Of a stretch of DNA of 64,000 nucleotides, positions 1,587-55,330 are shown one piece after another. Position 1 is the stretch's first letter; each line of letters starts with the position of its first letter. The position numbers and the translations under genes are program-made. The notes beneath the pieces are model-generated. The model searched no databases and was not told where the DNA came from. It worked only from the letters and a program-made list of their open reading frames with translations. Source of the DNA: Flavobacteriaceae bacterium (lineage in GTDB: Bacteria; Bacteroidota; Bacteroidia; Flavobacteriales; Flavobacteriaceae); the NCBI GenBank assembly GCA_009926065.1, contig RFPP01000003.1, positions 31,537-95,536 of the forward strand, written 5' to 3'.

Positions 1587-1668
1587 AGCTGATCCCGCTA
1601 TCATTCCTATCCGCGTTGTGGTTCGTGCCTCTCCACAACGCGGGATTTTCCCTTCTATCGGGGCTAGG
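1587..1668 (+). repeat. Structured intergenic repeat, copy A
   Basis: Lies 12 nt beyond the dnaE stop. It begins AGCTGATCCCGCTATC and ends ATCGGGGCTAGG, flanks shared with copies B-D. The centre is an 11-bp perfect stem, CCGCGTTGTGG (1611-1621) against CCACAACGCGG (1633-1643), with an 11-nt loop. The stem sequence differs completely from the other copies while pairing is kept. It could act as a terminator or mRNA-end element for dnaE, but there is no T run directly after the stem. Confidence 0.7.
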
Positions 1669-1680
1669 TTTTTTGTAGAA

Positions 1681-12849: not shown

Positions 12850-12916
12850 GGAGCTTTTTCCTGCTTTCCTCTTTATCCTCGCCCAAAAGCGAGGGATACC
12901 GTTTCAATCAGGGCTA
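12850..12916 (+). repeat. Structured intergenic repeat, copy B
   Basis: Lies between the divergent pdhB and etfB genes. It begins GGAGCTTTTTCCTGCTTTCC and ends ATCAGGGCTA, with a central CCTCGC/GCGAGG stem (12877-12882 with 12889-12894) around the loop CCAAAA. The loop is identical to copy C although the stem differs. It sits just upstream of the pdhB promoter. Confidence 0.7.
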
Positions 12917-13028
12917 CGAAAACGATTTAGTATTGATATTTTGTTTAAAAATAATATGCACGCATAGTAAATTGAAACAAATTAATTACTAATTTAGTGG
13001 CCGAATTATTTTTCTAAATTTTATATAA

Positions 13029-35720: not shown

Positions 35721-35741
35721 AATTATGATATAGGTTCGGTT

Positions 35742-35830
35742 TGCGTGAGGGATGGCAGTGGAAATACTTTGTTTAACTTAGTGAAACAAAGATTGCAACG
35801 GACAGCCCGACCCTTGTGGTCACGCCACAA
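35742..35830 (-). repeat. Structured intergenic repeat, copy E (diverged subtype)
   Basis: Read on the minus strand, it starts directly after the pdxJ stop with GGCGTGACC...GGTCGGGCTGTCCG and ends TTTCCACTGCCATCCCTC then ACGC. Its centre has an 8-bp stem AAACAAAG/CTTTGTTT (35784-35791 with 35767-35774) and a 9-nt loop. The TTTCCACTGCCATC part is identical to copy C. A second small hairpin, TTGTGG/CCACAA (35814-35830), is unique to this copy. Confidence 0.65.
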
Positions 35831-35833
35831 ATA

Positions 35834-36547
35834 TTATTTTAATTTTTGCAAATACATATTAATCACATTGTCTAATCCAAGATATAAAGCTTCGCAAATT
35901 AAGGCATGACCAATGGAAACTTCTAGTAAATTAGGAATGTTTTGATTAAAATATAAAATATTATCTAAGCTTAAATCGTGTCCAGCATTGATTCCTAAAT
36001 TCAATTCGGTGGCAAAATTTGCCGCAGAAACATAAGGACTAATTCCAAATTTATTTCCCAATTTATATTGATGAGCATAACTTTCAGTGTACAATTCTAT
36101 TCTATCGGCGCCTATTTTTGCTGCTCCTTCAATCATTTCTAATGTAGGATCAACAAATATGGAAGTTCGAATACCGTTTCGTTTGAATTCTTGAACCATT
36201 TCAGTTAAAAAATCACAGTGTTTTACAGTATTCCAACCCGCATTTGAGGTAATTGCATCGATGGCATCAGGAACTAGAGTTACTTGTGTTGGTTTTACTT
36301 CAAGGACTAAATTGACAAATTTCGACTCCGGATTACCTTCAATATTGTATTCAGTGTGAACAATATTTTTCAGATCTCGCGCATCTTGATACCTAATATG
36401 GCGCTCATCTGGCCTTGGATGAATGGTGATCCCTTGCGCTCCAAAATTTTGAACATCTTTAGCAACCATAAGTAAATTAGGCATATTTCCTCCGCGGGCA
36501 TTTCTTAAAGTAGCAATTTTATTAATATTTACGCTTAATTTTGTCAT
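35834..36547 (-). CDS. pdxJ: Pyridoxine 5'-phosphate synthase
   Basis: PdxJ, 237 residues from the ATG at 36547 (MTKLSVNINKIATLRNARGGN). The track's start 12 codons upstream overlaps the probable promoter and is rejected. Family motifs: QGITIHPRPDERHIRYQDARDL near 43, FVNLVLEVKPT, RIELYTESYA near 151 and GINAGHDLSLDN near 186. It condenses 1-deoxyxylulose-5-phosphate with 3-amino-2-oxopropyl phosphate to give pyridoxine phosphate, the last step of the DXP-dependent vitamin B6 route. It is divergent from the CBS-nadK genes. Confidence 0.97.
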   Translation of the reverse strand: MTKLSVNINKIATLRNARGGNMPNLLMVAKDVQNFGAQGITIHPRPDERHIRYQDARDLKNIVHTEYNIEGNPESKFVNLVLEVKPTQVTLVPDAIDAITSNAGWNTVKHCDFLTEMVQEFKRNGIRTSIFVDPTLEMIEGAAKIGADRIELYTESYAHQYKLGNKFGISPYVSAANFATELNLGINAGHDLSLDNILYFNQNIPNLLEVSIGHALICEALYLGLDNVINMYLQKLK

Positions 36548-47848: not shown

Positions 47849-47917
47849 GGAGCTATTTCCAGCTGTACGCTACAATCCACGCCCAAAAGCGTGGGATTTC
47901 CACTGCCATCTGGGCTA
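47849..47917 (+). repeat. Structured intergenic repeat, copy C
   Basis: Begins GGAGCTATTTCCAGCTGTAC and ends TTTCCACTGCCATCTGGG then CTA. Central stem CCACGC/GCGTGG (47877-47882 with 47889-47894), loop CCAAAA. It lies 31 nt after the Nfu stop and 12 nt before the DUF255 start. The ORF track wrongly starts the DUF255 gene at a GTG inside this copy. Confidence 0.75.
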
Positions 47918-47929
47918 AAAAAAGTTACC

Positions 47930-53475: not shown

Positions 53476-54879
53476 ATGATCCTTTTGAGAACAATTTCTA
53501 AAATCAGTCTTCTTTTTGTGCTAACTCTTTTTTACAGTTGCGCTACTACTTCAAAAATTACTGCGTTAAAACCTGAACCGGACGATGCTTTGCCATTAGC
53601 TTACGACAATACACCTTCATTTATTAGTATTCCAATAGATATTAAACTGAAAGATATTGAGAATCAGACGAATAAATTTTTGAATGGTTTGATTTATGAA
53701 GACACCAAAATTGAAGATGACGATATTCAAATATCAATTTGGAAGTTGGCTCCCATTTCTATTACCAATTTAGACGGAAAGATTAAAACTGTTTTACCTT
53801 TAAAAGCGGCTATTAAATATAGAATTGGTACTGACAAATTAGGAATTGCATTGTACAGCACTCAAGAATTTAATTTAAACGGAAATATCACTTTATTGAG
53901 TGACGTGAAATTATTGAATTGGAAGTTGAGTACCAAAACGGAGTTTAAATCTTTGGATTGGAATGAAAGCCCAACGACTGTAGTTATGGGAAAATCAATA
54001 CCAATTACTTATGTTATTAATCCCACAATAAAATTATTTAAATCGAAAATTGAGAGAACTATCGACGAAGCTATTGAAAGTTCCATGGATTTTAAACCAA
54101 ATGTGCTTGATGCCTTACAGAAAATATGTACTCCAATACAAATGAATGAAGCGTTTGACACTTGGTTACGAATTGTTCCAATAGAATTGTACGCCACAGA
54201 CGCTCGATTTGTAAAGGACAATATTTCGTTGGCAATGGGATTGAAATGCAATATGGAAACGTTAATTGGGCAAAAGCCATTGACTAAATATGACAAAAAC
54301 AAAATAGTATTAAAATCGGTAACTCAAATGCCAGATAATATTTCGGCAAATATTGTTGCCGTTTCTAGTTATCATGATGCCTCAAAAATTATCACTAAGA
54401 ATTTTGCCGGACAAGAATACGGCTCAGGAAGTAAAAAAGTAACGGTTCAAAATGTAGCTGTTTGGCACAAAAACGGTAAAATGGTGATTGCTTTAGATAT
54501 GCTAGGTTCTATTAATGGAACGATTTATTTAGCCGGAGTTCCAAAATATAATGAAACCACAAAAGAAATCTATTTTGACGAATTGGATTATGTGTTGGAT
54601 ACTAAAAGCAAATTGATGAAGACTGCAAATTGGTTGGCACAAGGGTTGATATTGAAAAAAATTCAATCGAGTTGCCGTTACTCGATTCAATCCAATTTAG
54701 AGGAAGGGAAGAAAAGCATGATGACTTATTTGAAGAATTATTCTCCAATGCCAGGAATTGTTATTAATGGGAAAATTGATACCATTGAATTTCAAAAAAT
54801 ACAATTAACCAACAAAGCTATAGTTGCCTTTGTAAAAGTGAATGGTAATGTGAAAGTTGCTGTTGATGGTTTGAAATAG
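53476..54879 (+). CDS. DUF4403 family lipoprotein
   Basis: A 467-residue envelope protein of unknown function. The N-terminus is a lipoprotein signal with a hydrophobic core and YSC, the Cys near residue 22 being the likely lipidation site. The rest is mixed alpha/beta with several repeats of strand-helix-strand typical of DUF4403 (SFISIPIDIKLKDIENQTNKFLNG near 48, LPLKAAIKYRIG, and a second half with IYLAGVPKYNETTKEIYFDELDYVLDTKSKL). Such folds resemble lipid-binding tubular modules, but that is speculation here. Single transcription unit; repeat copy D lies downstream. Confidence 0.83.
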   Translation: MILLRTISKISLLFVLTLFYSCATTSKITALKPEPDDALPLAYDNTPSFISIPIDIKLKDIENQTNKFLNGLIYEDTKIEDDDIQISIWKLAPISITNLDGKIKTVLPLKAAIKYRIGTDKLGIALYSTQEFNLNGNITLLSDVKLLNWKLSTKTEFKSLDWNESPTTVVMGKSIPITYVINPTIKLFKSKIERTIDEAIESSMDFKPNVLDALQKICTPIQMNEAFDTWLRIVPIELYATDARFVKDNISLAMGLKCNMETLIGQKPLTKYDKNKIVLKSVTQMPDNISANIVAVSSYHDASKIITKNFAGQEYGSGSKKVTVQNVAVWHKNGKMVIALDMLGSINGTIYLAGVPKYNETTKEIYFDELDYVLDTKSKLMKTANWLAQGLILKKIQSSCRYSIQSNLEEGKKSMMTYLKNYSPMPGIVINGKIDTIEFQKIQLTNKAIVAFVKVNGNVKVAVDGLK

Positions 54880-54955
54880 GTTCTTAATTCTGACAGGTTT
54901 TTAATATGAGTTAGGTGTATTTAACAGTATATACAAATAATCAATTAGAATCATT

Positions 54956-55028
54956 CCTAGCCCCGATTACAATGGAAATCCCACGCTTTTTTGCGTGGAT
55001 TGAAATGGAAAGCGGGAATTGCAGTTCC
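54956..55028 (-). repeat. Structured intergenic repeat, copy D
   Basis: Read on the minus strand: GGAACTGCAATTCCCGCTTT at the left end and ATCGGGGCTAGG at the right, stem CCACGC/GCGTGG (54981-54986 with 54993-54998) around six A. It lies between two convergent genes (DUF4403 and the small CxxC protein). The six-U loop of the plus-strand RNA and lack of a trailing T run argue against a plain terminator. Confidence 0.75.
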
Positions 55029-55060: not shown

Positions 55061-55330
55061 CTACTTGATTTTCTTTTTATACATTTTATAGACTGCAAAA
55101 AAGGCCAATCCTATCAGGATATATGGGAAAATCATTAGGTAGACGATTCCATCGTTAATTCCTTTGGCTTTGGCGGTATTGCCTTCGCTTTCTAGAGCCG
55201 CTCTACACATGGCACATTGAGCATTTGTGGTGATGGAGTAGAAAAAAAACAATAGAAAAAGGAGAGCAGAAGTATTGAAATTTCTACGACTTTTAACATT
55301 CAACTTTTTACTTTCGCCTTTAATTAGCAT
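55061..55330 (-). CDS. Small exported CxxC membrane protein in the cytochrome oxidase cluster
   Basis: An 89-residue protein that I can place only by context. It has a signal-peptide-like hydrophobic segment (about 21-34) ending TTNAQ. The pair Cys39-Cys42 (CAMCRAALESEG) follows at the predicted mature start, and a second TM segment lies at about 63-82 before a basic tail. Topology would put the CxxC on the periplasmic side. It overlaps the DUF420 gene by 11 nt and is the last gene of the oxidase assembly run that includes SCO, so a role in copper or thiol chemistry for the oxidase is plausible but unproven. Not a c-type heme site, since no His follows CxxC. Confidence 0.75.
   Translation of the reverse strand: MLIKGESKKLNVKSRRNFNTSALLFLLFFFYSITTNAQCAMCRAALESEGNTAKAKGINDGIVYLMIFPYILIGLAFFAVYKMYKKKIK

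Follow-up and report, generated by a model that had tools for sequence, protein, structure and literature searches.

The dispersed hairpin repeat in a Flavobacteriaceae genome is Flavo-1 (RF01705), a widespread family mostly inherited in place

Flavo-1 (RF01705) was catalogued in 2010 and has been listed in Rfam since then as an sRNA with no assigned function. Its Rfam model describes one hairpin only. Weinberg et al. (2010) judged Flavo-1 to be 'probably a biological RNA, probably not cis-regulatory' (PMC2864571). In RNA-seq of F. psychrophilum, Flavo-1 matches are found sense or antisense alike, many of them lie outside transcripts, and several 5' transcribed regions coincide with Flavo-1 matches (PMC9723704). 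Annotators of transcripts repeatedly meet the family without a reading of what it is. For RAYT transposases, subclass 2.6 in Bacteroidetes is described as having atypical secondary structures on its flanks, which recur in the genome (PMC6006769).

We analyzed a 64,000-nt stretch of a Flavobacteriaceae genome, referred to here as the window. It contains five copies of one structured repeat. This repeat is Flavo-1, and the Rfam model has the same consensus and structure as the window copies. Four of the five exceed the Rfam gathering threshold for RF01705 of 42 bits, with E-values of 5e-10 to 1e-8. The copy at 1588-1669 is under this cut-off in the genome search (36.4 bits, E 3e-6). With R1, our own model built on 25 Flavo-1 copies from the window's genome, it scores 40.8 bits (E 1.8e-11), and E-values over the window copies are 1e-26 to 2e-9. 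The copies belong to two structural types and are located as follows.

47849..47920, minus strand: Flavo-1 type 1, the copy from which the analysis started; tip CCACGC/GCGTGG; Rfam match 47852-47920 (minus), 58.0 bits, E 5e-10; R1 84.6 bits; 31 nt past the stop of nfuA (47817) and 12 nt ahead of the start of the yyaL/DUF255 thioredoxin-domain gene (47930), the neighbors having NifU/Nfu and Thioredox_DsbH matches.
12850..12922, minus strand: Flavo-1 type 1; tip CCTCGC/GCGAGG; Rfam match 12853-12919 (minus), 55.5 bits; R1 66.0 bits; between a divergent transketolase C-terminal-type gene and an electron transfer flavoprotein subunit gene.
54952..55026, plus strand: Flavo-1 type 1; tip CCACGC/GCGTGG; Rfam match 54955-55023 (plus), 53.7 bits; R1 76.6 bits; between convergent ORFs, a DUF4403 gene ending at 54879 and an ORF ending at 55061.
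1587..1669, minus strand: Flavo-1 type 1 with the long tip CCGCGTTGTGG; Rfam 36.4 bits; R1 40.8 bits; between a thioredoxin gene start (1468) and a DNA polymerase III alpha gene stop (1681).
35738..35831, plus strand: Flavo-1 type 2, with the type 1 hairpin, an outer stem GCGTGA/TCACGC and a short 3' side hairpin; Rfam match 35738-35816 (plus), 53.2 bits; R1 35.0 bits; between an alpha/beta hydrolase gene and pdxJ.

An earlier note on this DNA had described a family of structured repeats that is dispersed in both orientations and has covarying stems. Our analysis confirmed this description. The four copies it listed are all in place, their stems pair as claimed, and at least 59 copies are present in the same genome. 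The E-values with both models, together with the covariation described below, place the family far beyond chance hairpins. Five copies, A to E, had been claimed and four located; the fifth is most likely 35738-35816, which is found with both Rfam and R1 and belongs to the second structural class. Both orientations do occur, but the consensus structure scores on the strand opposite to the one that had been read, for example on the minus strand for 47849. Placement next to gene ends is only partly correct: the copy at 12850 is located between two gene starts and that at 54956 between two gene stops. The proposed left-end motif GGAGCT is exact in just two copies. The recurrence that it noted in Flavobacterium intergenic regions, with no function assigned, is borne out in 58 of 61 congeneric genomes. 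The catalogued status of the family as Flavo-1 (RF01705) had been missed.

In the window's genome (2.04 Mb, 72 contigs), the Rfam model gave 59 Flavo-1 matches at E <=0.001, 46 of which are above the Rfam cut-off. Among the sampled congeneric genomes, 58 of 61 contain Flavo-1, and the count per genome ranges from 0 to at least 64. Over the order, the distribution is patchy (10 of 62 genera). No matches were found in 14 control genomes, and none in a plasmid collection and a phage collection. Occurrence is therefore mainly in Flavobacteria, as it is for RF01705. The variable copy number and the patchy distribution are as expected for a proliferating repeat, not for one gene. A yyaL scan over named genomes gave, among the matches listed, mostly distant Bacteroidota, and one Flavo-1 copy in 1.45 Mb. 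A record titled as a Bifidobacterium breve MAG (CALPUN020000105.1, locus L087) contains a Flavobacterium-like yyaL (66% identical to the query) and a Flavo-1 copy; its title is probably wrong. Close relatives of the window's genome were located via nfuA, and comprise G158 (95% identical) and six others (85-88%).

The approximate type 1 consensus on the Rfam strand is TTTTAGCCCxGATyGCAGTGGAAATCC - tip - GGATTGCAACGGAy'AGCx'GGAAATAGCTCC. Among 81 copies, the outer pair x/x' is C-G in 30, T-A in 28, A-T in 14, G-C in 6 and T-G in 2, and the pair y/y' is A-T in 40, G-C in 21 and T-A in 19. Between the pairs are conserved purine mismatches (A.G in 80 of 81, G.A in 74, A.G in 65, G.A in 65 and A.G in 48). 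Inside the window's genome the outer pair is seen as C-G, T-A, A-T and G-C, amid conserved G.A mismatches. Covariation is 0.463, compared to 0.169 +/- 0.017 in shuffles, and none of 500 shuffles reached it. It falls to about 0.14 or lower if the partner is shifted by 1-3 columns. In the consensus secondary structure 91.2% of cells are paired, in agreement with the RF01705 structure. An AGC/GCT pairing at the foot of type 1 is putative and represents our reading of the sequence.

In type 2 copies, including that at 35738 in the window, the hairpin is kept and the ends are GCGTGAGGG ... CCCGACC ... GGTCACGC, which produce the outer stem together with a further short hairpin. This outer stem is seen in the DNA fold of 35738-35834 (z -3.79). 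Very similar type 2 copies are found near contig ends in G158, at L263 (G158:C6:1-700), L294 (C11:1-500) and L302 (C21:1-400), and one of them follows a 5S-like rRNA end that carries a terminator. This suggests a type 2 copy behind each rRNA operon in G158. We also observed a long-tip variant of about 143 nt, with a partly conserved apex and a tip ending in AGCGACCAAAGGAAGCT or similar, at L276:6783-6925, L286:10688-10831, L307:17482-17623, L340:2505-2648 and L333:12393-12538; G010 also holds matches of similar length. Compared to the single hairpin of the Rfam model, the family thus additionally includes the class with outer stem and side hairpin, the 143 nt variant and the tip replacement described below.

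Comparison with relatives indicated that the copies are old. The flanks of all 59 copies were compared with 2.27 Mb of G158, which is about 92% identical to the window's genome. Collinear mapping was obtained for 53 copies, and 51 of these 53 sites are occupied in G158, mostly with the same gap length within a few bases. The copy at 1587 (no. 50) is present at its orthologous site in G158. The comparison of the two genomes gave neither a clean empty site nor a target duplication; at both unshared sites a larger segment has been replaced. The nfuA-yyaL copy is present in the same orientation in all seven nearest relatives, which are 85-95% identical at nfuA. Its stem shows paired changes, from CCACGC to CCTCGC at L171 and to CCATGC at L172. 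In G264 (L183), a more distant genome, the tip is entirely different. On an nfuA tree of 25 genomes with nfuA and yyaL adjacent, presence of the copy needs three changes and is clustered (permutation P 0.001); presence of Flavo-1 at a given gene is lineage-restricted. The occupied sites and the conservation at nfuA-yyaL indicate that Flavo-1 copies are old, vertically inherited residents, not recent hops.

The arms of the hairpin are 95.3% identical per locus between the window's genome and G158, whereas intergenic DNA in their vicinity is 91.9% identical (Wilcoxon P 3e-4). This higher identity is either mild constraint or homogenization by exchange. Conservation of the arms over the flanks hints at a present function. 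In G175 (L175), the orthologous copy in the nfuA-yyaL gap is broken by the palindrome ACCTGCTTGCCGGCGGGCAGGT and a second insertion. Indels of a few hundred to 2100 bases adjoin copies nos. 0, 12, 25, 28, 31, 41, 53 and 57 in the comparison of the window's genome with G158. Disturbed intergenic gaps number 10 of 49 with a copy and 3 of 40 controls, a difference that is not significant (P 0.13). A hotspot of gene gain and loss beside Flavo-1 copies was accordingly rejected; there is a hint of rearrangement next to them.

At orthologous copies nos. 16, 26, 28 and 42, the tip is replaced or extended between the window's genome and G158, and the flanks and arms are the same. No. 26 is the window copy at 35738, in which the whole tip is unlike that of its G158 orthologue. 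When both tip arms are replaced together, pairing is kept without stepwise compensation. Part of the stem covariation may therefore stem from exchange of units. A similar swap at copy no. 48 was considered and rejected, as a repeated site elsewhere, near an rRNA operon, carries a better orthologue with the same tip. Among the other aligned copies, 16 double changes occurred at paired sites, compared to 6.5 expected (P 0.001), and nine of these went from pair to pair. There were 143 single-sided changes, and the folds include some chance pairs from the flanks. In-place compensation is thus real but modest. The claim that compensatory stem changes reflect selection 'rather than simple copying' holds only in part: whole tips are swapped at orthologous sites with both arms at once, and single-sided changes far outnumber double ones. 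A second dispersed hairpin repeat, GTCATTGCGAGGNACGAAGCAATCTC, is found free in G158, and in six Flavo-1 copies its hairpin makes up the tip, each time on the Rfam strand. The repeat is located on G158 contigs C1, C2, C4, C9 and C10 (loci L227-L342; for example C4:37992 and C9:91181), and several of its copies are less than 200 nt from a Flavo-1 copy. Covariation among dispersed repeats can partly reflect exchange of whole stem-loops, and RNA motif calls from covariation alone call for caution.

Placement relative to genes appears random. In G158, where gene calls are simple ORFs, 70 copies have both neighbors called; 38 are between tandem, 7 between convergent and 25 between divergent genes, compared to 39, 8 and 23 expected. 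None of the copies placed in G158 is inside an ORF. Between tandem genes the Rfam strand is antisense rather than sense in a ratio of 25:13 in G158 (P 0.07) and 22:9 in the window's genome, largely at the same sites. No replication-strand bias was found in two one-contig genomes, with 41 copies oriented with and 51 against the fork, assuming a terminus opposite dnaA. With DNA parameters, the mean probability of the arm pairs is 0.61 on the Rfam strand and 0.24 on the other strand, whereas with RNA parameters the arm pairs form on both strands (0.62 and 0.56). In paired columns of standing copies, G.T exceeds A.C on the Rfam strand (19:7 and 19:5); recent changes do not show this asymmetry (27 G.T and 37 A.C). 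The strand-specific DNA fold and the G.T excess point to the Rfam strand folding as a single strand. Together with random placement, single-strand folding points to DNA. Folding by itself is not decisive: neither z-scores nor pair probabilities on the Rfam strand tell DNA from RNA, and since both strands fold about equally with RNA parameters, the Rfam strand may also fold as RNA.

Flavo-1 is therefore widespread, mostly inherited in place and covarying, and its placement shows no clear relation to the direction of genes or of replication. We lean, with restrained confidence, towards the reading that it is an old, dispersed, strictly intergenic REP-like DNA repeat, and not a set of terminators or sRNA genes. 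A REP-like element is also the best supported of the three suggestions of the earlier note.

The strongest rival, which we consider rather doubtful, is a transcribed mRNA element. Here, the Rfam strand or its complement in 5' or 3' UTRs would set mRNA stability, processing or translation. The strong covariation (0.463 versus 0.169), the G.T excess on the Rfam strand and the arm conservation are all consistent with such an element, as are the 5' transcribed regions in F. psychrophilum that coincide with Flavo-1 (PMC9723704). However, the strand relative to genes is mixed, 25 of 70 G158 copies are between divergent genes, and presence at a given gene is lineage-restricted. The F. psychrophilum map also has no consistent strand and many untranscribed copies (PMC9723704). 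The narrower suggestion of an mRNA 3' stabilizer or terminator is unsupported, as T runs are few and copies are not more frequent than expected between convergent genes.

A true member of the REP-RAYT system, mobilized by a RAYT or Y1 (HUH) transposase, is unlikely. Flavo-1 is extragenic, palindromic and of high copy number (59 in the window's genome), its fold with DNA parameters is specific to a single strand, and the repeated structures beside subclass 2.6 (PMC6006769) would fit such a system. However, the window's genome contains no Y1_Tnp, and over 61 genomes the Y1 transposase count does not correlate with Flavo-1 copy number (rho 0.14, P 0.29), many copy-rich genomes having no Y1. Only 1 of 30 Y1 loci adjoins a clear Flavo-1 copy. 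Neither end of the alignment shows a GTAG or CGTC tag at the foot of the hairpin. A search for RAYT subclass motifs, with a crude pattern, recognized just 2 of the 30 Y1 proteins. There is no present RAYT link; a RAYT origin may lie in a remote ancestor.

We regard a family of small RNA genes as very unlikely. The Rfam type label (Gene; sRNA) and the 2010 judgement 'probably a biological RNA' (PMC2864571) speak for it. Against it are the dozens of copies per genome, many of them outside transcribed regions in F. psychrophilum (PMC9723704), and most copies have no terminator T run on either strand (4 of 59 and 6 of 59 on the two strands). The small RNA option raised earlier is weaker than the REP-like one. 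Intrinsic terminators at gene ends can be dismissed for most copies: although these are GC-rich hairpins and some lie shortly after stop codons, A runs are commoner than T runs after the hairpin, convergent gene pairs are not enriched (7 versus 8 expected), and the nfuA-yyaL site of G282 and G227 has its own T-run hairpin, distinct from Flavo-1 and upstream of it.

As a REP-like DNA repeat, Flavo-1 would have multiplied ancestrally in each lineage through an enzyme recognizing one strand folded as a hairpin. The recognized hairpin would carry the regularly spaced G.A mismatches. The copies would now be resident, and occasionally a whole tip would be swapped between copies, or with the second hairpin repeat. 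Several observations count against the REP-like reading. No mobilizing enzyme was found (rho 0.14 for Y1; 1 of 30 loci) and no clean empty site between the window's genome and G158. The nearly equal folding of both strands with RNA parameters, the arm conservation, the antisense excess in tandem pairs, the lack of wobble asymmetry among recent changes and the lack of fork bias also count against it. A more specific proposal, which we put forward tentatively as a possibility, is that Flavo-1 is not an RNA gene but the substrate of a so far unrecognized single-strand DNA processing system in Flavobacteriia, with a mismatch helix, a replaceable tip shared with GTCATTGCGAGGNACGAAGCAATCTC, and one- and two-hairpin forms. 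We did not find the two structural classes, the vertical persistence, the tip replacement at orthologous sites or the strand-specific fold described in the papers that we consulted. For a family that has been filed as an sRNA, the evidence provides a testable alternative, a DNA repeat that folds on one specific strand and whose tips can be exchanged.

Flavo-1 shares features with several known elements. Like MITEs, it is short, non-coding and dispersed. A clear terminal inverted repeat was not seen beyond AGC/GCT, nor was a target duplication between the window's genome and G158, and no plasmid or phage copies were found. Single-strand mobility of the IS200/IS605 type shows a fork-orientation bias, whereas Flavo-1 has no such bias (41:51). 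Integron attC sites resemble Flavo-1 in that they are imperfect hairpins with conserved unpaired bases and a tip that varies in sequence and length. Unlike attC sites, Flavo-1 copies are dispersed singly and do not form cassette arrays, and the attC end boxes (R boxes) are not apparent in the consensus. Compared to REP elements, Flavo-1 is 70-90 nt rather than 20-40 nt long, has no GTAG/CGTC tag or associated transposase, and contains a variable, exchanged tip and conserved G.A mismatches. With REP elements it shares an extragenic location, a palindromic sequence, many copies in both orientations, the status of an old resident, and a hairpin preferred on one strand.
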